Assembly (NCBI RefSeq): GCF_014653945.1
Contig: NZ_BNAU01000001.1
Location: forward strand, 1-64,000
Origin: Amycolatopsis deserti
GTDB lineage: Bacteria; Actinomycetota; Actinomycetes; Mycobacteriales; Pseudonocardiaceae
Reading direction: 5' to 3'
Length of the DNA stretch: 64,000 nt
This document shows, in pieces, positions 2,740 to 23,204 of the stretch (position 1 is the first letter of the stretch; the number at the start of each line of letters is the position of its first letter). Position numbers and translations under genes: made by a program. The notes under the pieces were generated by a model. The model did not search any database, was not told the DNA's origin, and saw only the letters and a list, made by a program, of their open reading frames with translations.

Positions 2740-4995
<2,256 letters not shown>

Positions 4996-6902: not shown

Positions 6903-8273
6903 TCAGCCGCGGCGGGACAGGCTCGCCAGAACCTGCCGCGCGGCGCGCTCACCCGAGGCGGCCGCGTCGGCGAGGGAGGGCATGTCCAGCTGGTAGTCGC
7001 CGGCCAGGTGGACCGGGCCGAGGTGGTCGCGCAGCGTCGGCAGGGTCGCGCGTCCGCCGGGCGCCCAGAACGGCACGACCCGGGGGTGACGCCGCACGAA
7101 CGTTTCGCCGAGCTTTCCCTCGAGCTCGGGGTAGAGCGCGAGGAGGTCGGCGGTGAACCGGGCGAGGATCTCGGAGTCGCTGAGTTCGAACAGCCGGTCG
7201 GCCACCGCGCCGCCGGCGAAACAGGCCAGCGCGCCGCCCGGCTTCCGCGGGCCCGGACCGCGCAGGGCGGCGGCGTGGTTGAACATCGCCTGGAACGCCA
7301 TCCGGGGCGTCGACACGGCGATGAAGTCGTCCCACCGCTGCGGGCCTTCCTCGTGGGTGAAGAAGCCCACGACCACGTACCGTCCGTAGTGGATTTCGTC
7401 GAACGCCGCCCGGTACTCCGGCGGCAGGCCGGGCATGATCTTCACCGCGACGTCACCGGGCACGGTCACGATCGCCCGGCGGGCGCGGATCCGCGCCGGT
7501 CCGTTGTCGTCCTCGTAGTCCACGACCACGCTGTCGTCGGTCCACTCGACCGACCTCACCGGGGAGTTCAGCCGCAGGCGGTCACCGAGGTCGGCGGCCA
7601 GGATGTCGGTGAGGGTCTGGTTTCCGCCTTCGGGCAGGGTCAGGTTCGGCACCTTCGCCGGATCGGTCAGCAGGATCCCCATCGAGAGGGCGAACTGCGT
7701 CGCGGCCGTCTCCTCCGGCTCGCACCCCATCCACTGCCCGGACCAGGACCGGACCATGTCCCGGGCGACCTCGGAGCCGACTCCGCGGAGCACGTACGAC
7801 GCGGATCGGGCGTCCAGCTTGGCCCGGACCCGCTTCGCCAGGCGGTTGTCCGGGTTCATCGCCAGGAACGGCACCGCCGCGAGGATGCGGGCGCCGACCG
7901 CCGCCAGCCCGGCCCGGTCCGCCCAGCTCATCCCGGAGCGGAACATCAGGGCGAACGGGTTGGAGGTGTCGACCTGCTTGCCGTTCAGCGCCAGCGCCAC
8001 CTTCTTGCCCGCCAGGGACCCCATCGCGACCCGGTGGCGTTGGAGGGCTTCGATCAGCGGCCCGGTTCCCTCGGTGAACTGGGTGCCGAGGTTGATCCAG
8101 TATCCGCCCCGGCGAACCGACTCCACCCGGCCGCCGGCCCGGCCGGCGGCTTCGAGCACGACGACGTTCTGCTCGGCCAGGGTGGTGGCCGCCATCAACC
8201 CCGCCATGCCGGCGCCGACCACGACGACGTCCGCTTCGAACTCGTGCCGGGTGTTCTTGCGTGATGCGGTCAC
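6903..8273 (-). CDS. FAD-dependent amine oxidase family protein
   Basis: A 456-residue flavoprotein. The ADP-binding fold VVVVGAGMAGLMAA lies near residue 12, followed by the GRAGGRVES fingerprint of the flavin monoamine oxidase family. A C-terminal flavin segment reads GPVHLAGDYQLDMPSLADAAASGERAA. Such enzymes oxidise amines to imines and then aldehydes or ketones, using O2. The GTG at 8273 begins 5 bases after the hydrolase stop, so it is the last gene of the operon 12305 to 6903. With the permease, Baeyer-Villiger-type and hydrolase genes upstream, it probably acts in amine catabolism; the exact substrate is unknown. Confidence 0.85.
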   Translation of the reverse strand: MTASRKNTRHEFEADVVVVGAGMAGLMAATTLAEQNVVVLEAAGRAGGRVESVRRGGYWINLGTQFTEGTGPLIEALQRHRVAMGSLAGKKVALALNGKQVDTSNPFALMFRSGMSWADRAGLAAVGARILAAVPFLAMNPDNRLAKRVRAKLDARSASYVLRGVGSEVARDMVRSWSGQWMGCEPEETAATQFALSMGILLTDPAKVPNLTLPEGGNQTLTDILAADLGDRLRLNSPVRSVEWTDDSVVVDYEDDNGPARIRARRAIVTVPGDVAVKIMPGLPPEYRAAFDEIHYGRYVVVGFFTHEEGPQRWDDFIAVSTPRMAFQAMFNHAAALRGPGPRKPGGALACFAGGAVADRLFELSDSEILARFTADLLALYPELEGKLGETFVRRHPRVVPFWAPGGRATLPTLRDHLGPVHLAGDYQLDMPSLADAAASGERAARQVLASLSRRG

Positions 8274-8278
8274 GGCAC

Positions 8279-9343
8279 TCAGCCTGCTTTCGTGATGGTG
8301 GTGGAGTAGGAACGGTCGAGCGCGGCGGCGATGGCCCCGACCAGTCGCTCGGTCGCCTGCCGGCTGCTGGGGCTGATGCCCGTGTAGGAGAGGTATCCGT
8401 GCACTAAACCCGCCTCGCGCGTGACCTCGACCGGCACGCCGGCCTCGAGCAGCGCGGTCGCGTAGGCCAGCCCGTCGTCGTGGAGCGGGTCGAAGCCCGC
8501 CAGGTTGACGATCGCGGGCGGGAGCCCGGTCAGGCTCGGCGCGCGGTACGGGGAGACGCGGGGGTCCGCGGGGTCGGTCCCCTCGGGGAGGTAGTTCTGG
8601 GCGAACCAGGCGATCTGCTTGGCCGAGAGGGCGGGTGATCCCGCGAACTCGTCCTGGGAGGGACGGTGCTCCACGAGATCGGTCACCGGCTGGATCAGCA
8701 CCTGGAGCAGCGGCTGCACCGCCTCGCCCCGCACCTGCTGGCACAGGACGGCCGCGATGTTGCCCCCGGCGCTTTCCCCGGCCACGACGATCCGATGTGG
8801 ACTGATGCCCCAGCCGGCCGCGTGCTCGGCGGCGTACCGCCACGCGGCGAGCGCGTCGTCGTGCGCGGCCGGGAAGGGGTGCTCCGGAGCGAGGCGGTAC
8901 TCGACCGAGACGACGTCCGCACCGGTGCCGTGCGCGAGCATGCGCGCCGGCGCGGTGTAGCTGGCGCGGCTGCCGATCACGAAGCCGCCACCGTGGAAGA
9001 AGAGGATCAACCCCCGCGAGGGCGTGCCGGTGCTGTAGCGCGTGGCGAGCACGCCGTCCGCGACCTCGATCTCCTCCTCGATCGCGCAGGCCGGAACCCG
9101 GGCCGCGAAGAGGGCCAGGTCGCTTTCGGTGACCTCGCGGGCCTCGGCGGCCGGCAGGTCGCTGTAGTCGGGGCCGGACTCGCTCAGCTTCATCAGGAGC
9201 GCGACGTCGGGTGCCATGCCCTCGCCCGCGCTGTTGACCGGCGGCCGGGCGAGGAGCCGCTGGACCGCGGCCGGCAGGCGGCTCAGGCTGATCAGGAAGG
9301 CCCGCTGGAACCGCTGGGCCAGGGTGAACCGCGGGGCGCTCAT
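8279..9343 (-). CDS. HSL-type alpha/beta hydrolase (esterase/lactonase candidate)
   Basis: A 354-residue member of the hormone-sensitive-lipase family of esterases. The oxyanion motif HGGGFVIG lies near residue 117, the nucleophile elbow GESAGG near residue 188, and the acid and base are likely in DPLHDDG and HGYL near the C-terminus. It cleaves carboxyl esters or lactones in the cytoplasm. ATG 9343 overlaps the stop of the flavoprotein upstream by four bases (ATGA), so the two are translationally coupled. Following a Baeyer-Villiger-type enzyme, hydrolysis of the ester or lactone product is the natural role (inference). Confidence 0.9.
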   Translation of the reverse strand: MSAPRFTLAQRFQRAFLISLSRLPAAVQRLLARPPVNSAGEGMAPDVALLMKLSESGPDYSDLPAAEAREVTESDLALFAARVPACAIEEEIEVADGVLATRYSTGTPSRGLILFFHGGGFVIGSRASYTAPARMLAHGTGADVVSVEYRLAPEHPFPAAHDDALAAWRYAAEHAAGWGISPHRIVVAGESAGGNIAAVLCQQVRGEAVQPLLQVLIQPVTDLVEHRPSQDEFAGSPALSAKQIAWFAQNYLPEGTDPADPRVSPYRAPSLTGLPPAIVNLAGFDPLHDDGLAYATALLEAGVPVEVTREAGLVHGYLSYTGISPSSRQATERLVGAIAAALDRSYSTTITKAG

Positions 9344-10869
9344 GACGCGGCTTCCACGCTCGCGAGCCGGTCCGGGGTGGCGATCCGGGTCGAGAAACGA
9401 ATGTGGTCGTCGTCGACGAGCCGGCCCTTGAACAGCCGGTTGTCCTTGATGAACGTGGTGTGCATCTTCCACGGCAGTTCCGTGCCCTGGCGCGGAAGCT
9501 CGTGCTTGGCCCGCTGGATGTAGCCCGCGCTGAGGTCGAGCAGGTCCACTGTGGGCATGCCCTCCGGCGGGACCGGCACGGCGATGTCGTAACCCTTCGC
9601 GTCCATCGTGCGGATCACCTCCGCGGCGAGGCGGCACACGTTGCGGATGCGCAGGGTCCACGTCGCCTTGGTGTAGCCGAGCATCATGGCCCAGTTGGGC
9701 ACGCCCGAGATCAGGGCGCCGCGGTACAGCACCGTGTCGCCCAGGTTGACCGGGGTGCCGTCCACCGTCGGCTTGATGCCGCCCAGCATCTGCATGACGA
9801 GGCCGGTCGCGGTGACGATGACGTCGGCCTCGAGCGTCCGGCCCGACTTCAGCAGGATGCCTTCGCGGGTGAACCGCTCGATCTGGTCGGTCACCACGTC
9901 GGCTTTCCCCTCGCGGATCACCTGGAAGAACTCGTTGTCCGGCGTCGCGCACAGGCGCTGGTCCCAGGGGTTGTAGGGGGGTGCGAAGTGGGTGTCGACG
10001 TCGAATCCGGCCGGCAGCTGCTTGGCCGTCCACTTGCGCAGCAGGTTGCGGCCGAAGTTCGGGAACTTGCAGAGCACGCTCACGATCAGGTGGTCGGACC
10101 ACATGTTCTTGAACCGCGTGGCGGCGTACCCGCGCTCGACGCCGAAGAGCTTCATGAGCCGCTGGGCGAGCTTGTCCACCCTGGGGACCGACGCGACGTA
10201 GCTCGGCGTGCGCTGCAACATGGTGACGTGGGCTGCCGCGCCCTCGCCCGTCAGCATCGCGGGGAGCATGGTGACGGTGGTCGCGCCGCTGCCGATGATG
10301 ACCACGCGTTTGCCGCTGTAGTCGTAGTCCTCCGGCCAGTGCTGCGGGTGGAGGATGTCGCCCTGGAAGTCCTCCCGGCCCTCGAAGCGGGGCTCGTAGC
10401 CCTTGTCGTAGCGGTAGTAGCCGGTGCCGCTGACGACGAACCTGGCCCGGATGGACTTGTGGGTTTCGTTGCCCGCCTCGTCCGTCGCGGTGACCCGCAG
10501 CGTCCACCGCGCCTCCTCGCTGGACCAGTCGGCAGCGGTGACCCGGTGGCGTAGCCGCAGGATCTTGTCGAGACCGAACTCGGTGACGGTCTCGGCCACG
10601 TAGTCGCGGATCAACGGGCCGTCGGCGATCGCCTCCTTGTGCAGCCACGGCTTGAACTCGTACCCGTAGGTGTGCACCGAGTCGTCGGACCGGACGCCCG
10701 GGTACTTGAACAGGTCCCAGGTGCCGCCGACCGCGCCGCGGCCCTCCAGCAGGAGGATCTTCTTGTCGGGGAAGTCGCTGGTCAGGTACTTCGCCGCACC
10801 GATGCCGGACAACCCGGCGCCGATGACGACGATGTCCGCCGACTCCGTCCTGTGGTCGTGGTGCTGCAT
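9340..10869 (-). CDS. Baeyer-Villiger-type flavoprotein monooxygenase
   Basis: A 509-residue FAD/NADPH enzyme. It has a first dinucleotide fold GAGLSGIG near residue 18, the Baeyer-Villiger fingerprint FxGxxxHxxxWP (FQGDILHPQHWP) near residue 173, then a second fold GSGATTVT near residue 191. Enzymes with this signature insert oxygen next to a carbonyl, or oxidise N or S atoms. ATG 10869 is preferred to the ATG nine bases upstream because GAGAGGA then has normal spacing. It is flanked by the permease (14 bases upstream) and a coupled hydrolase, as expected for ketone-to-ester-to-alcohol conversion. Confidence 0.9.
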   Translation of the reverse strand: MQHHDHRTESADIVVIGAGLSGIGAAKYLTSDFPDKKILLLEGRGAVGGTWDLFKYPGVRSDDSVHTYGYEFKPWLHKEAIADGPLIRDYVAETVTEFGLDKILRLRHRVTAADWSSEEARWTLRVTATDEAGNETHKSIRARFVVSGTGYYRYDKGYEPRFEGREDFQGDILHPQHWPEDYDYSGKRVVIIGSGATTVTMLPAMLTGEGAAAHVTMLQRTPSYVASVPRVDKLAQRLMKLFGVERGYAATRFKNMWSDHLIVSVLCKFPNFGRNLLRKWTAKQLPAGFDVDTHFAPPYNPWDQRLCATPDNEFFQVIREGKADVVTDQIERFTREGILLKSGRTLEADVIVTATGLVMQMLGGIKPTVDGTPVNLGDTVLYRGALISGVPNWAMMLGYTKATWTLRIRNVCRLAAEVIRTMDAKGYDIAVPVPPEGMPTVDLLDLSAGYIQRAKHELPRQGTELPWKMHTTFIKDNRLFKGRLVDDDHIRFSTRIATPDRLASVEAAS

Positions 10870-10883
10870 GCTGCGCATTCCTC

Positions 10884-12305
10884 TCAGTGATGGGTGTCGT
10901 CCGAGGCCGGAGCGCTCGTCAGACGGTGGGTGATCAGGAAGACCGCGAAGACCGCGGCCAGGGCGACGAGAGCCACGTACGACATCGCGTCCAGCGGTGC
11001 GGCGGGCGGATTGATCAGGCCGTTCAGGTACATCCAGGCCATGGCCGCCGCACCGGCGACGGCGCTGACGACCGCGGTCACACCGAGCCGGCCCTCTCGC
11101 GCCAGCAGCTTCACGGCACCGGCGCAGATCAAGAGGTAGGGAATCACCCAGAAGTAGACGATGAGCGTCGCTACCGAGTTGTAGACGTCGACGATGTCGT
11201 CCGGGTTCGCGGCCGCCATGACGAGGATCGCGCCGAGACCGAGGACGCTGATCGTGACGACGGCTGTCGCGGGACTCCGGTGGCGCGGGTGGATCCGGCC
11301 GGTGCGCGCGGGCAGCAGCCGGTCGGTGGCGAGCGTGGCGACGAACCGGGAACCGTAGTTGACGAAACCGATCAACGCGGCGAACGTCGCGATCGCGAGG
11401 ACCAGGTCGGTGGCCGTGGCCACGGTGCTGCCGAGGCCGCCTTCGATGGCCAGTGCCGCCGCGGGGGAGGTTCCGGCCGCCAGCGCGTCGCTCGCGGCGG
11501 TCAGGGCAGGCACCTGGAGGAAGGTCGCGACCACGTACAGGGCGCCGAGGCCGGCCGGGACGCACATCACGGCGAGCGGAACCGCGCGCTTGGCGTCGCG
11601 GGTCTCCGCGGCGAGTGCGGTGCTGCTCTCGAATCCGACCAGGAAGACCGCGCCGGCGGCGACGCCCTGGAAGATGCCGCTGGTGGTGGCTCCCTCGAAC
11701 GACAGCTGCGCGCCGAGGTCGAGGCCGGAGTGCGCGGCGGCGGCCACGGTGACGACCACCATCAGCGGGACCGAGACGGTCGCGAGCGTGACCGCCGACC
11801 GCACGGACGTGCCGAGGCCGCGATAGGCGATCGCCGCCGCGATCAGCACGGCACCGCTGTAGATGATCATCTGGACGCCGATGTCGAAACCCGATCCGAC
11901 GCCCACGGAGAGCAGGAAGCTTCCGGAGAAGAGCCCGACGAGGAAGGCGATGGCCCCGACCTGGGCGACGTAGCCGAGGAACAGCGCGGCGCCGGTGAGG
12001 ATCCGCGCCCACGGGCCGAACACGTGGGAGATGTAGGAGTAGAGCGAACCGGTGACCACGTAGCGCCGGGCGAAGCTGATGATCGACAGGCCGACCAGGC
12101 TGGTCCCGAAGGCGGCGATCAGCGCGCCGAGCCAGCTTCCGTTGCCCGCCGTGGTCAGGATGAGGGCCGGGACGGCGGCCAGGCCGACCGGCGGGACGTA
12201 GGAGGCCAGCGCCAGGCCGACCAGCTGGCTCCGGCTGAGGTGGCCGGTCACCTCGGGAGGTTCGTCGGGTGCGGGGCGGCTGGTGGCCTCGAGGTGGTCG
12301 CTCAT
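10884..12305 (-). CDS. APC-superfamily amino acid/amine permease
   Basis: 473 residues with about twelve hydrophobic helices and the APC pattern GFESSTALAAETRDAKRAVP after helix 6. It imports amino acids, polyamines or related amines by cation symport. ATG 12305 follows AGAAGGG; a longer start at 12335 lacks this site. It is the first gene of the minus-strand operon and diverges from the gamma-glutamyl ligase operon. Its place beside PuuA-, PuuC- and PuuD-like genes makes it the PuuP counterpart, though the transported amine may not be putrescine. Confidence 0.9.
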   Translation of the reverse strand: MSDHLEATSRPAPDEPPEVTGHLSRSQLVGLALASYVPPVGLAAVPALILTTAGNGSWLGALIAAFGTSLVGLSIISFARRYVVTGSLYSYISHVFGPWARILTGAALFLGYVAQVGAIAFLVGLFSGSFLLSVGVGSGFDIGVQMIIYSGAVLIAAAIAYRGLGTSVRSAVTLATVSVPLMVVVTVAAAAHSGLDLGAQLSFEGATTSGIFQGVAAGAVFLVGFESSTALAAETRDAKRAVPLAVMCVPAGLGALYVVATFLQVPALTAASDALAAGTSPAAALAIEGGLGSTVATATDLVLAIATFAALIGFVNYGSRFVATLATDRLLPARTGRIHPRHRSPATAVVTISVLGLGAILVMAAANPDDIVDVYNSVATLIVYFWVIPYLLICAGAVKLLAREGRLGVTAVVSAVAGAAAMAWMYLNGLINPPAAPLDAMSYVALVALAAVFAVFLITHRLTSAPASDDTHH

Positions 12306-12347
12306 CGTTGGGGACCCTTCTGGCGGCACATGCATTAATCGGTCATC

Positions 12348-12371
12348 TGATTAAGTCAAGCGATTCAGTGA
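12348..12371. promoter_or_regulatory. Putative TetR operator, permease side of the amine island
   Basis: TGATTAAGTCAA (12348-12359) is repeated exactly at 21000-21011 in front of the TetR and membrane-protein genes. It runs into GTCAAGCGATTCAGTGA (12355-12371), a near copy of 12465-12481. Both are AT-rich islands in otherwise very GC-rich DNA and flank the divergent promoters. Confidence 0.6.
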
Positions 12372-12464
12372 GTGTGTGCGAAGTTGCCCGAGTCGTCAAG
12401 AGAGGGCCTCGCCTGCCGTCGGAGACCGGTGTTGACACGGGGCGACCCGGCACCCATCATCTTC

Positions 12465-12492
12465 GTCAAGCGATCGAGTCAACTGACTAACT
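12465..12492. promoter_or_regulatory. Putative TetR operator, ligase side of the amine island
   Basis: GTCAAGCGATCGAGTCA matches 14 of 17 bases with 12355-12371. It is followed by GACTAACT (12485-12492), which recurs exactly at 21068-21075. The site is 38 bases from the start of the first plus-strand gene, a good position for repression. The regulator is probably the TetR encoded at 20353-20961. Confidence 0.55.
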
Positions 12493-12529: not shown

Positions 12530-13210
12530 ATGACCGAAATCATGACGTTCCCGGAGGTGCCCGCGAGGCGCCCCGGAGTGTCCGAACGGGACGGCTCGGC
12601 CTTCCCCATCACGATCGAGGACGATGCGACTCCGCTCGTCCGGCTGATCGGGCGCACGTTGCGTGACTCGTCGCGAACCGGGCACGCCCACGAGGTCCTG
12701 GGCCGGTCCGCCGGCACCGTGGCGGTCCGCTCCCACGACACGCCGCAGGCCGCGACGATCGTCTTCGGCGGCGACGCCGCTGCGGTGACCAGCGGAGTCC
12801 GGGCCGAGCCGGACGCGACGGTCGTCGTCGATCTGCACGCACGCTTCGCCCCGGTGGGGGAGCCGTCCGGTGATGCCGCCCTGGCCGCCGGCGCCTTGCG
12901 CGCGTTGCGGCCGCCGCTGCCCCACTGGCGCGAGGCCGCCCAGCGCTTCTGGGACGCGACCCGCGACATCCCGGGCGTCCCCGAGGTCCTGATCGTCGAC
13001 GCCGACGGCGCCGAAGGCCCGGAGCGTGGTCAGTTCGGCGCCGGTTCGACCGAGTACCTGATGGCCGGACCGGCCGACCTCCTCGCCGGTGTCTTCACCG
13101 GGGCCGACGACTTCCTCGCCTCCTTGGCGGCCGGCCTGCGGGTCAAGGGCACGTTGGCGCAGGCGTCGGTCATGACCGCCGCGTCCTGGAGGGTTCGTTA
13201 TGGGATCTGA
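12530..13210 (+). CDS. SCP2-like small protein opening the catabolic operon
   Basis: 226 residues, soluble, with no signal peptide. The C-terminal third (EYLMAGPADLLAGV, AAGLRVKGTLAQASVM) resembles the SCP2 sterol-carrier fold, in which a domain ends with a loading site and G-x-x-V-x-G. The N-terminal half may be a second diverged copy. This assignment is tentative. It is the first gene of the plus-strand operon, and its stop lies 11 bases inside the gamma-glutamyl ligase gene, so the two are coupled. Holding a hydrophobic substrate for the ligase would fit (inference). Confidence 0.75.
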   Translation: MTEIMTFPEVPARRPGVSERDGSAFPITIEDDATPLVRLIGRTLRDSSRTGHAHEVLGRSAGTVAVRSHDTPQAATIVFGGDAAAVTSGVRAEPDATVVVDLHARFAPVGEPSGDAALAAGALRALRPPLPHWREAAQRFWDATRDIPGVPEVLIVDADGAEGPERGQFGAGSTEYLMAGPADLLAGVFTGADDFLASLAAGLRVKGTLAQASVMTAASWRVRYGI

Positions 13211-14546
13211 CCTCACCCGGCCCGCCCGCGCCGTCCGCCTCGAAGCGACCAACCACGACGGCAGCTTCCTGGGCAAGACCGTGTCGGACGCGAAGTTCGC
13301 CGCGGGCAAGGATGCCGGGTTCGCCTTCGCCGACATCCTGTTCGCGATCGACCTGGGCACCGAGATCGTCTTCGGGGACGCCTACCCGGACTGGCGCGGC
13401 AACCTCTACGACATCCAGATGATCCCGGACCCCTCGACGCTCGTGGAGTGGAAGCCGGGCCTGGACTCGGTCATCGGCGACTACTGGCTCAAGGACGGCA
13501 CACCGGTGCCGATCTGTCCGCGGAACCTGGCGCGGAAGATGGTGGACCGGCTGGCGTCGCTGGGATACACCGCGACCACCGCCGTGGAGATCGAGGCGAC
13601 CCTGTTCGAGGAGTCCATCCAGGAGGCGCGCAAGCTCGGGTACCGGGATCTGACGCCGCTGGGCGGCAGCACGGGTGCCACCTACCACCTGGCGAGGTCC
13701 GCGGACTGGGGCGGGTACATGGAAGCGGTTGTCGAGCGCCTCGATCGCGTCGGCATCGCGTGGGAGGCCTGGACCGACGAGGCCGCCCCCGGGCAGACGG
13801 AGCTGAACCTGGCGCCGGCGGATCCCATCACCCTGGCCGACTCCTGGGCCCGCACCAAGCAGATCATGCGTGAGGTCGCGTTCGACCAGGGCCACACGGT
13901 CACCTTCATGGCCAAGCCGACGGCCGGCTTCGGACAGGGCGCCCACCTCAACCTGTCGCTCCACAGCGGTGGGGTGAACCAGTTCTTCGCCGCCGACGGC
14001 CCGTCCCCGCTCATGCGGCACGCGGTCGGCGGACTGCTGGCGACGATGCCGGGCAACACCTCGATCGCGTTGCCGCAGATCACGTCCTACCGGCGGCTGG
14101 TGGACCTGACCGGACCGCCCACCACCGTGACGTGGGGCGTCAACAACAAGACCGCCGCGGTGCGCGCCATCACCGGCCACCCGAAGTACTCGCGCCTGGA
14201 GTACCGGCTGCCCGGCGCCGACGTCAACCCCTACCTCGCTGTGGCCGGCGTCCTGGCCGGGGTGCTGGCCGGCATCGAGCGGAAGATCGAGCCACCGGAG
14301 CAGGTCACGGACATGGCGTGGTGCCTGCCCGACGGCCACGGCGTGACCCGGATCCCGGACACGATGTCGAAAGCGGCCGCGGCCCTGGACGCCGATCCGC
14401 TCCTGCGGGAGTACCTCGGTGACGAGTTCGTGGACTTCTGGGTCGCGTCCCGGCGCTGGGAGTGGATGGAGTTCCACACCAAAGGCGGCGATCCGTTCGC
14501 CGAACTCTCCCAGTGGGAGTCCACCCGCTACTTCGAGTTCCCGTGA
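13200..14546 (+). CDS. Glutamine-synthetase-like gamma-glutamyl amide ligase
   Basis: 448 residues of the glutamine synthetase fold. Metal-site glutamates lie in VEIEATLF (near residue 129) and GQTELNL, the histidine in GQGAHLNLSLH (near residue 248), and a conserved NPYLAVAGVLAG near the end. Relatives such as PuuA, IpuC and AtdA1 use ATP to join glutamate to an amine. A role other than ammonia assimilation is supported by the next gene, a gamma-glutamyl amidohydrolase, and by catabolic neighbours. It ends in a GTGA overlap with a possible start of that gene. The amine substrate is not known. Confidence 0.88.
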   Translation: MGSDLTRPARAVRLEATNHDGSFLGKTVSDAKFAAGKDAGFAFADILFAIDLGTEIVFGDAYPDWRGNLYDIQMIPDPSTLVEWKPGLDSVIGDYWLKDGTPVPICPRNLARKMVDRLASLGYTATTAVEIEATLFEESIQEARKLGYRDLTPLGGSTGATYHLARSADWGGYMEAVVERLDRVGIAWEAWTDEAAPGQTELNLAPADPITLADSWARTKQIMREVAFDQGHTVTFMAKPTAGFGQGAHLNLSLHSGGVNQFFAADGPSPLMRHAVGGLLATMPGNTSIALPQITSYRRLVDLTGPPTTVTWGVNNKTAAVRAITGHPKYSRLEYRLPGADVNPYLAVAGVLAGVLAGIERKIEPPEQVTDMAWCLPDGHGVTRIPDTMSKAAAALDADPLLREYLGDEFVDFWVASRRWEWMEFHTKGGDPFAELSQWESTRYFEFP

Positions 14547-15352: not shown

Positions 15353-17715
15353 CCGCGAACGTGGCCCGCCCGGAACCGGTCGTGCCGGCCGGGCGGATCG
15401 GCGACGATCCCGCCATCCCGACGCTGACCGGACTGCTGGCGCGGCGCGCGCAGGACTCACCGGACCGCGAGTTCCTGCGCTTCGGCGAATGGTCGTGGAG
15501 TTTCGCCGACATCGACGCCTGGACCTCCCGGCTGGCGCACCGGATGATCGACACCGACGGCGTCCGGCCGGGGGACCGGGTGGCGATCATGCTGCCGAAC
15601 GTCGTGCACTGGCCGGTCGTGTGGCTCGCGGCCCTGAAGGCCGGGGCGATCGCGGTGCCGGTCAACTGCTCCTACCAGCGGGCCGATCTCGCCTTCGTCC
15701 TGCGGGATTCCGGTGCGCGCCTGGTGTTCACCGACGCCGAGCGGTCCGGGCTGGTCGCCGACGTCCGGGCGGCCGAGGCCGACCTCGCCGACGTTCGCGT
15801 CGTCGACGTGGCCGACGACGGGTCCGAACCGTTCCCGGCGACGGCGCCCGCGGTGCCGGTCGAGGCAGGTACGCTCGCGAACCTGCAGTACACCTCGGGA
15901 ACCACGGGCTTTCCGAAGGCGTGCATGCTCACCCACGACTACTGGGCCCGGCTGGGTTGGGTGTGCGCCGCGGCGGCCGGGCTTTCGCGCGAGGACGTGA
16001 TCCTGACCGCGCAGCCGTTCTCCTACATGGATCCACAGTGGAACGCCGCGCTCGCCCTCACGGTCGCCGCGCCGCTGGTCGTGCTGCCCCGGTTCTCCGC
16101 GTCGACCTTCGTGGCCGACGTCCGCCGCCACCGCGCGACCTTCTGCTACGTCCTCGGATCGATGCCGACGCTGCTGTTCAAGCAGCCACCCACCGACGAG
16201 GACCGCGACAACGACCTCCGGCTGGTGTTCTGCTCGGGCATCCCGGCCGGTCTGCACGCCCGGCTGGAGGAGCGGTGGGGCGCCCCGTGGCGGGAGATCT
16301 ACGGGATGACCGAGTCCGGAGTGGACCTGTTCAGCCCGCCGGGCGACACCGGCGCCGTGGGCAGCGGGAGCCTCGGACGGCCGTTGCCGTCCAAACAGGT
16401 CCGCATCGTCGGCCCCGACGGCACCGAGGTGCCCGACGGTGAGCCCGGCGAACTGATCACCGCGGGCAAGCCGATGATGAACGGCTACTGGAACCGGCCG
16501 GAGGACACCGCCCGGGTGCTGCGGAAAGGTTGGCTGCACACCGGCGATCTCGTCGTCCGCCACCCCGGCGGCGGCATCCAGCTGGTCGGGCGGATCAAGG
16601 ACATGGTGCGGCGCGGCGGTGAGAACGTCGCGAGCGTCGAGGTCGAGACCGTGCTGGAACGCGACGACAGGGTGGTCGCGGCCGCGGTCGTCGCCGAACC
16701 CGACGAGATCCTCGGCGAGGAGGTCAAGGCGTTCGTGCAGCTGGCGCCCGGGGTGCCGGCCGAGCGTGCGACGGCGGAGGAGATCGTCGAGCGGGCCGGC
16801 CGGGAACTCGCCCGCTTCAAGGTGCCGCGCTACATCGAGTTCGTCACCAGCTTCCCCCGCACGCCGTCCGAACGCATCTCCAAACCGGCCCTCAAGGCCC
16901 GCGCCGCGGCCGAGCCGGGCGTCACCTACGACTTCGGTAAGCGGCGCACCAGCACGGCCGCGTCCGGATTCCTCGACGCCGAGGTCGTCCGGGACGTCGC
17001 CGTGCTGACGTTCCGGCGTCCCGACAAGCTCAACGCCCTGGACGTGCCCACCCGGCTCAAGCTCGCCGCGGCCATCCGCGAGTACGGCACCGGCGAGCGC
17101 GTGCGCGGGATCGTGCTCACCGGCGCCGGCCGGGCCTTCTCCGCCGGGCAGGACCTGCAGAGTCCGATGTCCACCGATGCCGAGGTCGAAGAGGCGTTCG
17201 CGAGCTTCCACGACATCACCCGGGCCATCCTGCAGACCCGGGTTCCCGTGGTCGCGGCCGTCAACGGTCTCGCCGTCGGCGGAGCCTCGGAGATCACCCT
17301 GTGCTGCGACGCCCGCATCGGAACCCCGGCGACGGAGTACTACCAGCCGGAGAACATGCGGGGCCTCACGATCTCCAACGCCTCCAGCGTGCTGCTCAGG
17401 CGCCTCGTCGGCAACCACGCGATGCGCATGGTCCTCGGGTCCCCGCGGATCGGGTCCGCGGAGGCCCTGCGGATCGGGCTGCTGGACGAGATCGTCGAGC
17501 CCGGCACGTTGATCGACCGCGCGATCGACACGGTCCTCGAGTGGACCCCGGAGGGCAACACGACAGCCCTGCACCTGGAGCTCCTCCGGCCGGAGAGCGA
17601 GGAGATCGAGAAGGCGTTCGCCCGGGAGGACGCGGCCGCGAAGGCGGCGTGGGAGAGCGGAGCGCTCACCGCCGGCGTCCAGAGCTTCCTGGCGGCCAGG
17701 AGCGCCGGCGCGTAA
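15349..17715 (+). CDS. Fused acyl-CoA synthetase / enoyl-CoA hydratase
   Basis: 788 residues with two enzymes in one chain. Residues 1-525 are an ANL acyl-CoA ligase with the phosphate loop YTSGTTGFPKA near 181, YGMTESG, TGDLV and the hinge GRIKDMVRRGGENV. From about 535 there is a crotonase fold (VLTFRRPDKLNALD, oxyanion residues in AFSAGQDL and VNGLAVGGASEITL). Such a protein would activate a carboxylate with CoA and hydrate or otherwise process the enoyl-CoA product. The fusion is continuous with no frameshift. ATG 15349 overlaps the upstream stop, in a coupled operon. Confidence 0.9.
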   Translation: MTANVARPEPVVPAGRIGDDPAIPTLTGLLARRAQDSPDREFLRFGEWSWSFADIDAWTSRLAHRMIDTDGVRPGDRVAIMLPNVVHWPVVWLAALKAGAIAVPVNCSYQRADLAFVLRDSGARLVFTDAERSGLVADVRAAEADLADVRVVDVADDGSEPFPATAPAVPVEAGTLANLQYTSGTTGFPKACMLTHDYWARLGWVCAAAAGLSREDVILTAQPFSYMDPQWNAALALTVAAPLVVLPRFSASTFVADVRRHRATFCYVLGSMPTLLFKQPPTDEDRDNDLRLVFCSGIPAGLHARLEERWGAPWREIYGMTESGVDLFSPPGDTGAVGSGSLGRPLPSKQVRIVGPDGTEVPDGEPGELITAGKPMMNGYWNRPEDTARVLRKGWLHTGDLVVRHPGGGIQLVGRIKDMVRRGGENVASVEVETVLERDDRVVAAAVVAEPDEILGEEVKAFVQLAPGVPAERATAEEIVERAGRELARFKVPRYIEFVTSFPRTPSERISKPALKARAAAEPGVTYDFGKRRTSTAASGFLDAEVVRDVAVLTFRRPDKLNALDVPTRLKLAAAIREYGTGERVRGIVLTGAGRAFSAGQDLQSPMSTDAEVEEAFASFHDITRAILQTRVPVVAAVNGLAVGGASEITLCCDARIGTPATEYYQPENMRGLTISNASSVLLRRLVGNHAMRMVLGSPRIGSAEALRIGLLDEIVEPGTLIDRAIDTVLEWTPEGNTTALHLELLRPESEEIEKAFAREDAAAKAAWESGALTAGVQSFLAARSAGA

Positions 17716-17761
17716 CCCGGACTCGCACCACCCGCACCACAACGACGAGAGACGAGCCGAG

Positions 17762-18859
17762 ATGATCGACACCCAGGCCGCGGTACTGACCGCGTTCACC
17801 AAGCCACTCGAGCTGACCACCATCCGGGTGGACGACCCCGAACCGCACGAGGTGCGGGTCGCGGTCACGAACGTGGGGCTGTGCCACAGCGACCTGCACT
17901 ACCTGAACGGGGCGGTGCCGACCGGCCTGCCCGCCGTGCTCGGGCACGAGGTGGCCGGCGTGGTCGAGTCCGTCGGCTCCCAGGTGACCGGGCTGCGGCC
18001 CGGCGACCGCGTGGTCGGCGCGCTGACTCCGCCCTGCGGCAGCTGCACCAACTGCGACGCCGGATGGTCGACCCAGTGCCTGCGTCTCGAACAGGTGCGC
18101 CGCCGCCGGCGGCCCGCCTTCCAGAGCGCGGACGGGCGGCCGATCGAACGGCTCGCCGGCATCGGGGCGTTCTCCCAGCACATCCTCCTCCGCGAGAACG
18201 CGCTGGTGAAACTCCCGGACGACGTGCCGCTGCACGTCGGATGCCTGCTGGCCTGCTGCGTCATCACCGGCGTCGGCGCCGTCTTCCGCGGCGCACGCGT
18301 GCGGCCCGGCAGCACGGTCGCCGTCATCGGCTGCGGCGGCGTCGGATCGGCCATCATCCAGGGCGCCCGGCTCGCCGGCGCCTCGGCCATCGTCGCGATC
18401 GACCTCGACGAGGCGCGCCTGGAAGCCGCGCGCGGCTACGGCGCCACCCACGTCATCAACGGCGCGGACGGCGACCCGGTCACCGAACTCCACCGCCTGC
18501 TGGGTGACGGGGTGGACTACTCCTTCGAAGCGGTCGGCTCCGCCGGCACCGCGGAAACCGCCCTCGCGCTGGTGCGCCCGACGGGCACCGCGTGCCTGGT
18601 CGGGATCGCGCCCGATGGCGCCCGGCTCAGCATCCCGGCGTCGGACTTCTTCTTCGAGGAGAAGCGGCTCATCGGCTCCTACATGGGCTCGGGGCAGGCG
18701 CGGCAGGACATCGGCCAGCTCGCGCTGCTGTACCGGCAGGGACGCCTGCTGCTCGACGAGATGGTCACCCGCGTCATCCCGTTCGCCGAGATCAACGACG
18801 GCTTCACGGCGATGAAGTCCGGCGACGTGACCCGGATCGTCGCCGATCTCCGGTCCTGA
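17762..18859 (+). CDS. Zinc-dependent alcohol dehydrogenase (MDR family)
   Basis: 365 residues. The catalytic zinc ligands are Cys near 39 in GLCHSDLHY and the GHE motif near 60. A structural zinc loop with four cysteines (CGSCTNCDAGWSTQC) starts near residue 90. The cofactor fold is GCGGVGSA near residue 190, followed by an acidic residue (AIDLDE), which favours NAD+. It oxidises an alcohol to an aldehyde or ketone. It lies between the fused CoA ligase and an aldehyde dehydrogenase, a standard alcohol-to-acid pair. Confidence 0.92.
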   Translation: MIDTQAAVLTAFTKPLELTTIRVDDPEPHEVRVAVTNVGLCHSDLHYLNGAVPTGLPAVLGHEVAGVVESVGSQVTGLRPGDRVVGALTPPCGSCTNCDAGWSTQCLRLEQVRRRRRPAFQSADGRPIERLAGIGAFSQHILLRENALVKLPDDVPLHVGCLLACCVITGVGAVFRGARVRPGSTVAVIGCGGVGSAIIQGARLAGASAIVAIDLDEARLEAARGYGATHVINGADGDPVTELHRLLGDGVDYSFEAVGSAGTAETALALVRPTGTACLVGIAPDGARLSIPASDFFFEEKRLIGSYMGSGQARQDIGQLALLYRQGRLLLDEMVTRVIPFAEINDGFTAMKSGDVTRIVADLRS

Positions 18860-18884
18860 CCCCCTGAGCGCGGAGGGAATCCCC

Positions 18885-20348
18885 ATGGCGAGCAACGAGA
18901 TGACGATCCCGCGGCCGGTGAACTACATCGCCGACGAGTGGAGCGAATGCGCGGCGGTCGAGGACACCTGGAACCTCGACCCCAACACACGCGAACCCCT
19001 GCACCGCACGGTCACGACCGCACCCGCCGACCTGGAGCGCGCGCTGCGGCACGCCGAGCGCGTGTACGACATCGGCCGCTGGGACGACGACGCCCGGCGC
19101 GAGCGCGCCGAGATGCTCGACCGCGTCGCCGCGATCGTCGAGACCCGCGCCGAGGACATCGCCCGCACGGACTCGCTGACCAGCGGCACGCCCATCAGCG
19201 TCACCCGCGCGGTCGCGGCGTTCCTGCCGGCGCGGATCCGGGCCGCGGCGGCGGATCTGGTGACCATCCCGCGCGTCACCGCGCTGGCGGCCGGCGGCCG
19301 CGACGTCCGCCTGCACAAGGTGCCGTGGGGGCCGGCCGCGATCCTCACCCCGTGGAACGGCCCGAGCTTCATCCCCGCGGCCAAGGTCACCAGCGCGATC
19401 GCGGCGGGCTGTCCCGTCATCCTCAAGCCCTCGGAGCACGCGCCGAGCAGCGCGCAGATCATCGTCGAGTGCTTCGTCGAGGCCGGCCTGCCCAGCGGCG
19501 CGCTGCAGCTGGTGCACGGCGGCGGTGACGTGGGCGCCCGGCTGACGGCCGACCCGCGCGTCAAGATCGTGTCGTTCACCGGCGGACCGGGGGCCGGCCG
19601 GGCCATCGCGCGGGCCGCCGCCGAGGACTTCAAGGTCCTGCAACTGGAGCTGGGCGGCAACAACCCGGCGCTGGTGCTGGACGACGCCGACCTCGACGTC
19701 ACCGCCGACGGGATCCTCGACGGCATGACCAAGCTCAACGGCCAGTGGTGCGAGGGGCCGGGCAAGGTCCTCGTCCACCGCACGCTGGCCGACCCCCTCC
19801 TCGAGGCGCTGACCGTGCGGATCGCCAAGCTCGTGGTCGGTCACTCCCTGGACGAGGGCGCCGAGATCGGCCCGATCTCCAACGCGCCGCACTTCCAGAC
19901 CCTGCGGAGCCGGATCGAGGGGCTGCGTGCCCTCGGGGCGAGCATCCGGCAGCCCGCCCGGCTGCCCGGCCTCGGCGGTTTCTTCCTGTCGCCGACGATC
20001 GCCGCCGGCGCCGATCCCGCCCGGGCCACCGCGGAGCTGTTCGGTCCGATCGTCTCGCTGCACGCCGTGGACTCCGCCGAGGAGGCGTTGCGCATCGCCA
20101 ACGCTCATCCCTCGGGCCTGGACGCCTACGTGTTCGGCGCCGACACCGACCGCGCGATCGACATCGGCTCCCGCATCGTGGCCGGCGAGGTGCGCGTCAA
20201 CGGCGCCAAGCTCGCCGACCTCGGTGACGACTCGGCGCAGAGCTTCTGGGGTCCGGCCGGCATCGGCGGGCACGGACCGGCCGAATCGGTGCGGGTCTTC
20301 TGCGGCGACCGGGTCGTCGGCGTCGACTCGCCCGATCTGCCGCTGTGA
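18885..20348 (+). CDS. Aldehyde dehydrogenase
   Basis: 487 residues of the NAD(P)-dependent ALDH superfamily. The substrate-cofactor motif is TPWNGPSFIPAAKV, the general-base glutamate lies in LELGGNNP (near residue 255), and the catalytic cysteine in GQWCEGPG (near residue 288). The sequence is divergent, with GQWCEGP in place of GQxC(T/I)A. It oxidises an aldehyde to the carboxylate used by the CoA ligase, or acts like PuuC on a gamma-glutamyl amino-aldehyde. ATG 18885 follows GCGGAGGGAA. It is the last gene of the plus-strand operon and its end abuts the convergent TetR gene. Confidence 0.9.
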   Translation: MASNEMTIPRPVNYIADEWSECAAVEDTWNLDPNTREPLHRTVTTAPADLERALRHAERVYDIGRWDDDARRERAEMLDRVAAIVETRAEDIARTDSLTSGTPISVTRAVAAFLPARIRAAAADLVTIPRVTALAAGGRDVRLHKVPWGPAAILTPWNGPSFIPAAKVTSAIAAGCPVILKPSEHAPSSAQIIVECFVEAGLPSGALQLVHGGGDVGARLTADPRVKIVSFTGGPGAGRAIARAAAEDFKVLQLELGGNNPALVLDDADLDVTADGILDGMTKLNGQWCEGPGKVLVHRTLADPLLEALTVRIAKLVVGHSLDEGAEIGPISNAPHFQTLRSRIEGLRALGASIRQPARLPGLGGFFLSPTIAAGADPARATAELFGPIVSLHAVDSAEEALRIANAHPSGLDAYVFGADTDRAIDIGSRIVAGEVRVNGAKLADLGDDSAQSFWGPAGIGGHGPAESVRVFCGDRVVGVDSPDLPL

Positions 20349-20352
20349 CGGT

Positions 20353-20961
20353 TCAGGTGGCCGCGGGTGCGGTGCCGAGCCGGGCCGCGAGCCAGCTGTC
20401 GAGCACCGAGACGGTGACCTCCATCTGCTCCACCGCGACGGCGCGATCCCCGTAGGTGTACCAGTTCACGGCGAAACCGTCGGCCAAGGTGGCGATCACG
20501 TACGCGATCTGCTCGATCGTCTCCGGTTCGACCGGGTGGTCCGAGCGGGCGGCGCGGAGCGTGGCGCGCAGGGTGTCCAGTGCCTGGTCGTACACCGCGA
20601 TGCCGCGGCTTCCGTGCTGGCGCCGCGCCCAGGTGACCAGTTCCATCGCCGCCGCGGCGAAGTTGGGGGAGTCGAGGTAGAACTCCATGATCCCGCGCAG
20701 CACCCGGCGGGCGGTGTCCGTCAGGTCGCCGTGCGGGTCGTTGGCGATGATGACCTCGCGGTACTGGCCGGCCACGTAGTCGTAGACGTCGGCGAAGAGG
20801 TCTTCCTTGGAGTCGTAGCAGTAGTGCAGCATCGCCAGGTTCGCCTGGGCCTGCTCGGCGATCCGCCGGGTCGTCGCGCCCTCGATGCCGTGGGTCGCGA
20901 TGACTTCCACGGCGGCCTTGATGAAGTCGCTACGCCGTTGTGCGGCGGAGATCCGTGGCAC
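20353..20961 (-). CDS. TetR-family regulator of the amine island
   Basis: 202 residues from GTG 20961, chosen because GGGAGGG lies five bases upstream. An in-frame ATG at 20988 has no ribosome site. The N-terminal helix-turn-helix reads AAVEVIATHGIEGATTRRIAEQAQANLAMLHYCYDSKEDLF (given here as the domain at residues 13-53), followed by a helical ligand domain. It diverges from the membrane-protein gene. The gap between them carries TGATTAAGTCAA and GACTAACT, both also found upstream of the permease and ligase operons, so it probably represses all of them until an inducer binds. Confidence 0.92.
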   Translation of the reverse strand: MPRISAAQRRSDFIKAAVEVIATHGIEGATTRRIAEQAQANLAMLHYCYDSKEDLFADVYDYVAGQYREVIIANDPHGDLTDTARRVLRGIMEFYLDSPNFAAAAMELVTWARRQHGSRGIAVYDQALDTLRATLRAARSDHPVEPETIEQIAYVIATLADGFAVNWYTYGDRAVAVEQMEVTVSVLDSWLAARLGTAPAAT

Positions 20962-20999
20962 GAGGCCCTCCCAAGTGCGCGCCCACATAGTTGGACGTT

Positions 21000-21075
21000 T
21001 GATTAAGTCAACGCCAGCCTACCAGCCGCAGGGGCGGCACATTCTTAGTCAAACAACTTGATCGGACGACTAACT
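21000..21075. promoter_or_regulatory. Putative TetR operators between regulator and membrane-protein genes
   Basis: TGATTAAGTCAA at 21000-21011 and a bipartite element with TTAGTC (21045-21050) and GACTAACT (21068-21075) copy the elements at 12348 and 12485. They lie on both sides of the divergent promoter, consistent with autoregulation plus control of the downstream pair. Confidence 0.6.
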
Positions 21076-21147
21076 TCGTCTACCTTATGAGGTGGATCAC
21101 AAACCGCCTCGCGTACCCGAATTCACGAACCCGAAGGAATCACTGCC

Positions 21148-21834
21148 ATGAAGGACCTGCTCTTCATGCTGGCCGATCTCTGGATGATCTTCGCCGGCTT
21201 CTTCTTCGGCTGGAAGTTCATCCGGCGCTTCGGCAACTACCTGCTCGGTCTGGAGTGGATGGTCGTCGCCACGTCGGGCTCGAACTTCCTCCTCTGGGCG
21301 CTGCTGGGCGGACACGAAGACAGCGTGCTGTACGACATCGCGTACTTCTTCGACGCCTTCTCGCGATCCGTCGGCATCACGCTGATCCTCGTGATGGGCC
21401 TGATGCGGGTGACGCACCGGTACAAGCCGAGCGTCGCGGTCGATGTCGGTGTGTTCGCCCTGGCCGCCGTGGCCGGGCTGTACCTCCAGCAGTTCCGTCC
21501 TCCCGTGTTCCACGCCGGCCCGGCGACGTTCTACGTCGTGGTCAACGCCCTGACGACCCTCTTCCTGGCCTACTTCACGTGGCGGGTCTGGAAGGCCGGC
21601 GCCGCGGGGCACGCGTTCGCTCTCGGGCTGGTGTCCCTGGCCGGCTCGGCGATCGCGATCATCTACGACTTCTTCCCGCTCGCCGGCGACGACGCGCACC
21701 GGACGATCTTCTACACCGCCGCACTCGCCACGTGGGGCACGCAGATGTGCGTGTGCTACCTCGCTTACCGCGCCCTGCACGTCCGCACCGTGGCCACGGG
21801 CGTGGAACCGGCCGCGCACGCCGCCCGGGCCTGA
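21148..21834 (+). CDS. Uncharacterised multi-pass membrane protein
   Basis: 228 residues with about seven hydrophobic helices and short loops. Notable are an N-terminal amphipathic start (MKDLLFMLADLWMIFAGFFFGW) and aromatic-rich helices. I do not recognise a transporter signature or family. It is followed 11 bases later by a PuuB-like FAD oxidase and shares a promoter region with the TetR regulator, so it may be an uptake, export or electron-transfer partner of the oxidase (inference). Confidence 0.8.
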   Translation: MKDLLFMLADLWMIFAGFFFGWKFIRRFGNYLLGLEWMVVATSGSNFLLWALLGGHEDSVLYDIAYFFDAFSRSVGITLILVMGLMRVTHRYKPSVAVDVGVFALAAVAGLYLQQFRPPVFHAGPATFYVVVNALTTLFLAYFTWRVWKAGAAGHAFALGLVSLAGSAIAIIYDFFPLAGDDAHRTIFYTAALATWGTQMCVCYLAYRALHVRTVATGVEPAAHAARA

Positions 21835-21845
21835 GGAGCACCGAC

Positions 21846-23204
21846 ATGAAGACCGGCAACGTTTCCTACGCCACCTTCAGCGGCTGGGTCGATCCGCCCG
21901 CGGACGTCCGGCCCGCCCTGGCCGGTGATCTCTCCTGCCGGATCGCGGTCGTCGGCGGCGGCCTCGGCGGCATGTCGACCGCACTCCGGCTGACCGAACG
22001 CGGTCACGACGTGGTGCTGCTGGAGGGCGAGTTCTGCGGACACGGCTCCAGCTCCCGCAACGCCGGGCAACTGGCCGGCGCTCCGGGCGGCGACCTGCAA
22101 CTGCTCAACCTGCTCTTCCGGCGGAAGATGCCCGGCATGGTCCGGCTCGCCGAGCACGCCGCGCACCACGTGGAAGACCTCATCAAGACGCACGGCATCG
22201 ACTGCGACTACGAACCGGTCGGCAACTGCTTCGCGGCCGTGTCGCGCGGACAGCTGGGCCGGGTGCGCCGGGTGGCCCGGATCCTGGAGCGCGCCGGCGG
22301 TCACGTGGAACTGGGCACCAGCGAGGAACTCGGCATCCCGCGCGGGTTCCTCGGCGGGATGCGCGAGGTGGTCGGCGGGATGATGAACCCGGGCAAGTTC
22401 ACCCTGGGCGTGCGCCGGGCACTGCTCGCCTCGTCGGCGCGGGTCTTCGAGCAGACCAAGGTCACCGACGTGGCCCGCGACGACGGTCGGGTCGTCCTCA
22501 CCACCCCGCACGGGCGGGTCCGGGCGGAGAAGGTGGTGCTGGCGACCAACGCCTTCGCCGGCGAATGGGACATCACGCCGAAGCACCTGTCCGTGCCCAT
22601 CTGGGTCGCCGAGGCCGAGACCGAGCCGATCGACCGCGACCGCCTGGCCGCGCTGGGCTGGACCAGCCGGTCGGGACTGGTGACGCAGCACGCCATCATG
22701 GAGAACTACCGGCTGACACCGCGTAACACCATCGTGTTCGGCGTCCGGCGGCTCGAGCGGGGCACGACCTACCCGCTGCCGCGGAAGACGCCCGACCCGG
22801 CGCTGGTGGCGGAACTCGCCGAAGCGTTCGCGACGCGGTTCCCGGCACTGGCGGATGTCGCCGTGGAGCGCGCCTGGGGCGGGTGGATCGCGATCACCCC
22901 GACGATGCTCCCGGTCGCCGGGCAGATCGGCGACAGCGTCTTCTACTCGATCGCGTGCAACGGCCACGGCCTGGCGCAGGCGCCGTACGTCGGTTCCCTC
23001 CTCGCGGACCTGATCGTCGACGGAAAGCGGCCCGCGGACCTGGACGTCCTGTGGGCGCGGGAACCGAAGTTCCCGCGCCCGATGATGATGAGCCGCCTGG
23101 GACTGCGCGCCATCTGGGCCATCGACCGCTTCAACGACCGCATCAACGGAAGCCGCCGCAACGCCCGGCGCGGTGCGGCTCAGCTCACCAGCCCCTGGCG
23201 GTAG
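21846..23204 (+). CDS. FAD-dependent oxidoreductase (DAO/PuuB-like amine oxidase)
   Basis: 452 residues of the D-amino-acid-oxidase/PuuB fold: FAD motif VVGGGLGGMSTALRL near residue 33, EGEFCGHGSSSRNAGQ binding the flavin, and a C-terminal ITPTMLPVAGQIGDSVFYSIACNGHG segment (described as residues about 365-390). PuuB relatives oxidise gamma-glutamylputrescine or N-substituted amino acids to aldehydes plus H2O2. With the ligase, amidohydrolase and aldehyde dehydrogenase nearby it completes a gamma-glutamyl amine pathway. Its 3' end overlaps the convergent response regulator by 25 bases. Confidence 0.88.
   Translation: MKTGNVSYATFSGWVDPPADVRPALAGDLSCRIAVVGGGLGGMSTALRLTERGHDVVLLEGEFCGHGSSSRNAGQLAGAPGGDLQLLNLLFRRKMPGMVRLAEHAAHHVEDLIKTHGIDCDYEPVGNCFAAVSRGQLGRVRRVARILERAGGHVELGTSEELGIPRGFLGGMREVVGGMMNPGKFTLGVRRALLASSARVFEQTKVTDVARDDGRVVLTTPHGRVRAEKVVLATNAFAGEWDITPKHLSVPIWVAEAETEPIDRDRLAALGWTSRSGLVTQHAIMENYRLTPRNTIVFGVRRLERGTTYPLPRKTPDPALVAELAEAFATRFPALADVAVERAWGGWIAITPTMLPVAGQIGDSVFYSIACNGHGLAQAPYVGSLLADLIVDGKRPADLDVLWAREPKFPRPMMMSRLGLRAIWAIDRFNDRINGSRRNARRGAAQLTSPWR

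Follow-up and report, generated by a model that had tools for sequence, protein, structure and literature searches.

Why would a bacterium place the five functions of the Puu pathway (a permease, a glutamine-synthetase-like ligase, a flavin oxidase, an aldehyde dehydrogenase and a gamma-glutamyl hydrolase) among genes for Baeyer-Villiger oxidation, ester cleavage and CoA activation? The question is raised by positions 6903-23204 of a 64,000-nucleotide stretch of Amycolatopsis deserti DNA (the window), for which an original prediction had listed eleven functions. All eleven are recovered in place, nearly all by Pfam and the monooxygenase by its fingerprint motif, save that the SCP2 label of one small protein appears to hold at the fold level only; a TetR gene and the gene of a seven-helix membrane protein were absent from that list. 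We consider it close to an even call that the block is a catabolic regulon under TetR control whose amine substrate is, or becomes, an amino-ketone, which would be glutamyl-protected and cleaved by Baeyer-Villiger oxidation, with its amino fragment activated by CoA. The proposal is sequence based: from evidence for one regulon, from an amine-type glutamine-synthetase-like protein (GS) and from signatures of a Baeyer-Villiger monooxygenase (BVMO), esterase, alcohol dehydrogenase (ADH), aldehyde dehydrogenase (ALDH), glutamyl hydrolase, CoA ligase and hydratase, we infer the later steps.

The block comprises 13 protein genes in four divergently arranged units. The minus-strand unit encodes an amino-acid/polyamine-type APC permease (10884..12305, PF13520 E 1.6e-20; a longer start at 12335 is possible), a type I Baeyer-Villiger-type flavin monooxygenase (9340..10878), an HSL-family esterase (EST; 8279..9343, PF07859 E 3.2e-68) and an FAD amine oxidase of the monoamine oxidase (MAO) superfamily (AOX; 6903..8273, PF01593 E 2.4e-39). 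Its stop-start gaps are a few bases, and EST overlaps the BVMO stop by 4 nt. The plus-strand unit encodes a 226-aa SCP2-fold protein (SCP; 12530..13210), GS (13200..14546, PF00120 E 3.6e-81), a C26 gamma-glutamyl hydrolase resembling PuuD (GAT; 14570..15352, PF07722 E 1.3e-51), an acyl-CoA ligase fused to an enoyl-CoA hydratase (FCS-ECH; 15349..17715, PF00501 E 1.5e-73 and PF00378 E 2.1e-34), a zinc ADH of the NDMA/mycothiol-type branch (17762..18859, PF00107 E 1.1e-28) and ALDH (18885..20348, PF00171 E 2.7e-100); SCP overlaps GS, and GAT overlaps the ligase. Downstream are the minus-strand TetR gene (20353..20988, PF00440 E 9.6e-10) and then a plus-strand pair, the seven-helix (7-TM) membrane protein MEM (21148..21834) and a PuuB-like DAO-type FAD oxidase (21846..23204, PF01266 E 6.5e-56 to 2.8e-55).

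That these genes act together, as had been claimed, is indicated by a shared operator. An imperfect palindrome, CTTAGTCAnnTGACTAAG, recurs 5' of SCP and 5' of TetR in relatives. With up to 4 mismatches allowed, 38 of 52 SCP upstream regions contain it (shuffles: 3 of 1040), as do 37 of 42 regions upstream of TetR (shuffles: 1 of 840); it was derived from k-mer counts over 94 upstream regions, the window's own two among them. A position weight matrix was then made from 79 sites of TetR-carrying loci, excluding the window, and run on both strands of the 64 kb, although the palindrome that picked its sites had already included the window regions. The seven top sites (18 bp each) all lie within 12338..12491, between the permease and SCP genes (12338, 20.4 bits; 12351, 19.5; 12461, 12.7; 12474, 20.4), and 20990..21074, between TetR and MEM (20990, 21.4 bits; 21044, 17.7; 21057, 19.3). 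The best sites elsewhere in the whole 64 kb score 8.6 and then 4.2 bits. These two operator regions are the divergent promoters serving all four units, and because the seven best sites fall there, the 13 genes are predicted to form one TetR-controlled regulon. The site 5' of SCP was found in 35 of 40 TetR-positive loci versus 0 of 9 TetR-negative loci; the negative set is a weak control because SCP there mostly follows a gene on the same strand (a permease or another), and so may have no promoter of its own. The regulator is BetI-like, with a score below the model cut-off. Operator sites also overlap two by two, at a spacing of 13 bp (12338/12351, 12461/12474 and 21044/21057), an arrangement that may accommodate two TetR dimers per operator.

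Conservation across soil actinobacteria, in which the block recurs, leads to a similar view. Scanning genome contigs with the GS protein yielded 53 loci, which were searched with 10-kb flanks; genes were called present by tblastn at no less than 45% identity over no less than 40% of the query. The hosts belong to Amycolatopsis, Haloechinothrix, Prauserella, Saccharopolyspora, Nocardioides, Pimelobacter, Aeromicrobium, Streptomyces, Rhodococcus, Nocardia, Gordonia, Tsukamurella, Skermania and an unclassified Nocardiaceae bin. Not every locus counts as an independent case: L065 and L069 share a contig and run into each other, so that the matches of L069 to the BVMO family c14, the ammonia-lyase and AOX belong to the L065 cluster, and L086, L087, L089, L093 and L094 repeat L038, L040, L032, L025 and L024. 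Six core genes are nearly universal (SCP 53, GS 52, GAT 51, CoA ligase 52, ADH 51 and ALDH 51 of 53) and are complete in 50 loci; L030 and L070 stop at contig ends, and L053 lacks GAT. The other genes vary more: 7-TM 46, PuuB 42, TetR 41 and a PucR regulator 10; window-type BVMO 25 and phenylacetone-monooxygenase-like c14 26; EST 42 and the hydrolase c22 9; AOX 27 and the oxidase c17 13; ammonia-lyase c9 29; and imine-reductase c25 5. Even so, a BVMO of either family is present in 50 of 53 loci (exceptions: L031, at a contig end, L053 and L058), and an alpha/beta hydrolase of either family in 51 (exceptions: L031 and L053). Four genomes each carry two versions of the cluster (L023/L036, L025/L040, L035/L058 and L065/L069); in Amycolatopsis sp. 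NBRC 101858 about 14 kb of a single contig separates the two.

Within the window's family (150 genomes searched), SCP (E<=1e-15), GS (E<=1e-100) and the CoA ligase-hydratase (E<=1e-200) were detected in one and the same set of eight, the window's own genome included; six other genomes of its genus gave none of the three. Because the three genes share these eight genomes, the cluster behaves as an accessory element, acquired or lost whole. The 7-TM protein was found in ten genomes of the family, the same eight plus G001 and G117. Profile searches matched SCP in 7 of 394 genomes and, across the class, the 7-TM protein in 9 of 394. A genus-level search of 198 genomes added two GS relatives, L114 and L115, the latter mixing types: window-type BVMO, c22, AOX, the ammonia-lyase, and both TetR and PucR. 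Thus the gene set occurs together in other genomes and is not scattered, and on conservation, co-occurrence and the shared operator the predicted grouping is far beyond chance.

What does the glutamyl arm do? GS shares 30% identity with PuuA and 28% with GlnA. We take its residue numbering and the roles of the residues (metal, ATP and glutamate binding, and an ammonium site of D50, Y179 and E327) from GlnA. E212, E220, H269, R321, R344, E357 and R359 are kept in 51 of 51 relatives; E129 and E131 are present in the window protein, in a stretch that is unaligned in the comparison of relatives. R339 is replaced by Lys and H271 by Asn in 51 of 51. At the ammonium site, E327 is Gly and Y179 is Thr or Ala in all 51, and position 50 is not Asp in any of them (one has a gap), in a part where the alignment is weak. 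Since the metal, ATP and glutamate residues are kept and the ammonium-site residues of GlnA are lost, GS is likely an amine ligase, as the original prediction had supposed. SCP, which is translationally coupled to GS, lies immediately 5' of it in 51 of the 52 relatives in which SCP was called, with an 8-nt overlap in 42. It has no significant Pfam match (best E 0.083). Its AlphaFold model (pLDDT 91.4) gave 23 best Foldseek matches that are all SCP2/UbiJ or putative SCP2 chains, the best at E 1.8e-3 and none at or below 1e-3, so that the protein appears SCP2-like at the level of fold only. Of 51 relatives, 33 encode the CoA ligase and hydratase as a fusion and 18 as two adjacent genes. The Glu-Glu motif of the hydratase half was found by pattern in 49 of 51, and L021, one of the two misses, shows both residues by eye. 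ADH scores 283 bits against TIGR03989 (cut-off 440).

The resemblance to Puu is one of functions. As in Escherichia coli, a permease, GS-like ligase, DAO-type oxidase, ALDH and C26 hydrolase occur together, as had been noted, but the block is not the Puu pathway: identities are 26-31% (the permease 26% to PuuP over 221 aa; GAT 31% to PuuD; the PuuB-like oxidase 28% to PuuB over 421 aa, E 1.5e-37), and the scores of GS, GAT and ALDH are far below curated cut-offs. Membership was rejected for GS (181.9 bits versus 650 for the gamma-glutamylputrescine synthetase NF045547), for GAT (81.1 versus 266 for the PuuD equivalog NF008471) and for ALDH (172.7 versus 850 for the PuuC equivalog NF007352, at 30% identity). 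TetR replaces PuuR, no aminotransferase of any kind, and so no PuuE-type 4-aminobutyrate aminotransferase, is among the 13 genes, and BVMO, esterase, amine oxidase, ADH, CoA ligase/hydratase and the SCP2-fold and 7-TM proteins are added.

The second arm is built around the BVMO. The window protein carries FxGxxxHxxxW(P/D), as FxGxxxHxxxWP, which we take to be the type I BVMO fingerprint, and GGxWxxxxYPGxxxD, as do 25 of 25 relatives of its type. Its nearest solved structures are a BVMO and a cyclohexanone monooxygenase (E 5.6e-29 and 7.4e-27, over residues 14-230 only); that of c14 is phenylacetone monooxygenase (E 4.3e-156). EST has HGGGF and GESAG motifs and matches the LipP1 model at 253.7 bits (cut-off 350). 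The best solved relatives of AOX are MAO-A (E 4.4e-13) and putrescine oxidase (E 9.4e-12), with cyclohexylamine oxidase at E 2.5e-7; c17 of other loci matches cyclohexylamine oxidase at E 1.5e-64 and MAO better, at E 3.1e-86. The PuuB-like oxidase matches aminophosphonate-oxidoreductase and pipecolate-oxidase models below cut-off. MEM has no Pfam match and no Foldseek match in the PDB at E<=0.001; its AlphaFold model (pLDDT 85.4) has 7 helices, and its matches are GPCR-like alone, all above E 0.001, which we take as uninformative.

Several genes of this arm are replaced by others across loci: window-type BVMO by c14, the HSL esterase by the c22 hydrolase, and AOX by c17. A more distant locus, L103 (genome G530), retains SCP (40% identity), GS (60%), GAT (54%), ADH (44%), the window-type permease (53%), and has an ALDH. 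Its BVMO is of a third subfamily with the fingerprint His intact, and it encodes a homologue of 2,4-diaminopentanoate dehydrogenase (PF19328 E 1.5e-37; NF040740 254 bits, cut-off 400). No CoA-ligase/hydratase, 7-TM or PuuB-like gene was found in the L103 stretch. These non-homologous swaps, the third BVMO and the dehydrogenase of L103 included, suggest that the same types of reaction are carried out by changing proteins.

The BVMO arm also occurs on its own. In L073, L074 and L075, the last being a second copy in genome G054, a BVMO, c22 hydrolase, c17-like amine oxidase, 7-TM protein, PuuB-like oxidase and PucR-type regulator stand together, and SCP, GS, GAT and CoA ligase were not found in these three extra 7-TM loci; L075 has ADH, ALDH and a class III aminotransferase in place of the glutamyl arm. 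Around the 7-TM gene, L090 and L091 have a BVMO and lack GS, and L092 has 7-TM and PuuB-like genes with no BVMO within 20 kb. L091 and L092 add saccharopine-dehydrogenase-like genes, and L091 a RidA-family gene. By these associations the PuuB-like oxidase and 7-TM protein travel with the BVMO module. Since that module occurs without GS, ketone formation need not follow glutamylation, and the PuuB-like enzyme need not use a glutamylated amine. The proposal that the amine is glutamylated first and oxidised afterwards is thus doubtful.

Hints about the nature of the substrate come from partners that vary among relatives. The closest solved protein to c9 is the beta-alanyl-CoA:ammonia-lyase 4mtu (E 1.2e-17), and the one member tested, from L018, scores 145.2 bits against the 3-aminobutyryl-CoA ammonia-lyase model NF052388, below its cut-off of 160. 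This homologue is present in 29 of 53 loci and in L115. A beta-aminoacyl-CoA ammonia-lyase homologue points to a second nitrogen that survives as far as the CoA stage, and a beta-amino acid is probably where the capped nitrogen ends up. Imine chemistry is indicated by c25 in 5 of 53 loci and by the RidA-family protein of L091. L103 has a CoA transferase and, next to GS/GAT, an aminotransferase that is 58% identical to that of L075; aminotransferases would be expected in these loci were an amino acid set free. By homology, the variable partners would all act on a nitrogen beside a chain with a second carbonyl or amine.

Combining these observations, the simplest pathway that would use every kept gene is as follows. 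The APC permease would import the amine, and AOX and the PuuB-like oxidase, which the 7-TM protein may tether to the membrane, would turn a C-N bond into an imine or ketone with another nitrogen retained, as when a cyclic amine is opened or a diamine is oxidised at one end. SCP-GS would join glutamate to the remaining amine, blocking its re-closure onto the ketone. The BVMO would insert oxygen beside the ketone, EST would cleave the ester, and the alcohol would be converted to an acid via ADH and ALDH. GAT would then take glutamate off, freeing a beta-amino or similar acid for activation by the CoA ligase; in many relatives the ammonia-lyase would deaminate it and the hydratase add water, leading into beta-oxidation. 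In the window the last steps may differ because no ammonia-lyase match was found there; the free amino acid is perhaps transaminated, or the CoA ligase may serve the other fragment. Substrates considered are a polyamine or 1,3-diamine, a 2-substituted pyrrolidine or piperidine ring, and an amino alcohol.

Several observations weigh against this route. The window's genome gave no ammonia-lyase match at E<=1e-5, in a search that had no positive control, and the CoA ligase may act on the non-amino fragment. In c14 the fingerprint His is replaced by Ser in 23 of 23 proteins (L041 and other c14 loci), so this family may have changed in function and not be a true Baeyer-Villiger enzyme. No oxidase is universal: AOX or c17 is present in 36 of 53 loci and PuuB in 42, with several of the misses where the 10-kb flanks end. 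No BVMO was found in L053 and L058, which have the core; nor was one found in L114 (15.7 kb, ending at a contig end), which has GS and an imine-reductase homologue.

Among alternatives, the best surviving, which we nevertheless regard as unlikely, is that one regulator controls two adjoining pathways. An amino alcohol or diamine would take a gamma-glutamyl route (SCP-GS-GAT-ADH-ALDH-CoA ligase), and a different compound of the same food source an amine/ketone route (AOX, PuuB, 7-TM, BVMO and esterase). The second module does stand alone in L073, L074 and L075, and partly in L090-L092. However, just 3 of 53 loci have the GS core with no BVMO found, and a contig end truncates one of the three; the operators are shared, and three BVMO subfamilies have been recruited beside the same GS core.

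We find it rather improbable that, in the manner of cyclohexylamine degradation, glutamylation of a cyclic or long-chain monoamine is followed by oxidation to a ketone and expansion to a lactone or ester, which is then opened and oxidised to a (di)acid for loading on CoA. AOX and c17 do belong to the superfamily of MAO, putrescine and cyclohexylamine oxidases; BVMO, hydrolase, ADH, ALDH and CoA ligase provide the right chemistry and are co-regulated; and an SCP2 fold would suit a hydrophobic ligand. Yet loss of the nitrogen before the ketone leaves GAT nothing but glutamate to release, the route yields no beta-aminoacyl-CoA for the lyase of 29 of 53 loci, the BVMO module exists without GS, and the window AOX is distant from cyclohexylamine oxidase. 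Cyclohexylamine, which had been put forward as a fit, is not favoured, as a glutamyl arm would be superfluous in its lactone route and the ammonia-lyase homologue is present in relatives; as a named substrate it was rejected as over-specific. A detoxification or biosynthetic cluster that caps and removes toxic amines or aldehydes, with no growth on the amine, is very improbable: SCP2-fold and 7-TM proteins are unusual for simple catabolic routes, but with ADH, ALDH, CoA ligase and hydratase the products feed central metabolism, and biosynthetic assembly enzymes are missing from the 13 genes.

How does the amino-ketone route proposed here compare with other described systems? The isopropylamine route, with IpuA and IpuC, has GS-like capping and a GAT-like hydrolase. 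Gamma-glutamyl organic amide synthetase routes share both features with the cluster, and GS-like enzymes cap the xenobiotic amines aniline (AtdA1) and 1-naphthylamine (NpaA1) with glutamate; oxygen enters there via a Rieske dioxygenase, whereas here a BVMO-type monooxygenase would be used, with esterase and CoA steps (PMC11335346). Homologues of the Kal enzyme of lysine fermentation and of the diaminopentanoate dehydrogenase of ornithine fermentation both occur in relatives of the cluster, below equivalog cut-offs; in those fermentations, going by the model name, a keto-acid cleavage enzyme cuts the C-C bond, a step here probably taken by BVMO and hydrolase. With the cyclohexylamine/cyclohexanone-to-adipate route (PMC7206491) the cluster shares the order of amine oxidase, BVMO, hydrolase, ADH and ALDH chemistry. 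That route is not known to have a glutamyl arm or a beta-aminoacyl-CoA step, and its oxidase is only distantly similar to the window AOX. To our knowledge, no GS/GAT arm or amine oxidase is present in the mycobacterial mymA operon. Like the cluster, mymA has a BVMO, an esterase and an alcohol dehydrogenase (adhD) in one locus, and is linked to mycolate and cell-envelope functions (PMC10272862, PMC13234193). The cluster combines known chemistries in a set that we have not found described; in line with the original prediction, no pathway with this gene set was found in the open-licence PubMed Central literature.

Other features of the window were also noted. A second catabolic-looking cluster at 47519-61421 encodes an amidohydrolase, short-chain dehydrogenases/reductases, a thiolase, a branched-chain-type ABC transporter, a CoA ligase, an acyl-CoA dehydrogenase, an enoyl-CoA hydratase and a RidA-family protein. 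Two adjacent small genes at 40980-41704 have closely similar N-terminal sequences and are likely a tandem duplication. At 2740-6485, a heavy-metal P-type ATPase lies beside a His-rich protein and a small gene (6204-6485) that presumably resembles a CsoR-type regulator.

More broadly, we tentatively propose, at somewhat less than even confidence, a modular pathway of actinobacteria that uses gamma-glutamylation as an enzymatic protecting group. The cap would keep an amino-ketone open and its nitrogen masked for the BVMO and esterase cut, after which glutamate would come off and the beta-amino acid be CoA-activated, deaminated and hydrated; amine catabolism would gain two new components, the SCP2-fold protein (with GS) and the 7-TM protein (with the PuuB-like oxidase). 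If true, this would join glutamyl capping of amines with Baeyer-Villiger cleavage, a pairing not found in open-licence PubMed Central papers. It would also give testable functions, under one operator, to an orphan SCP2-fold protein and an orphan 7-TM protein, as well as to BVMO, imine-reductase and amine-oxidase relatives of biocatalytic interest.

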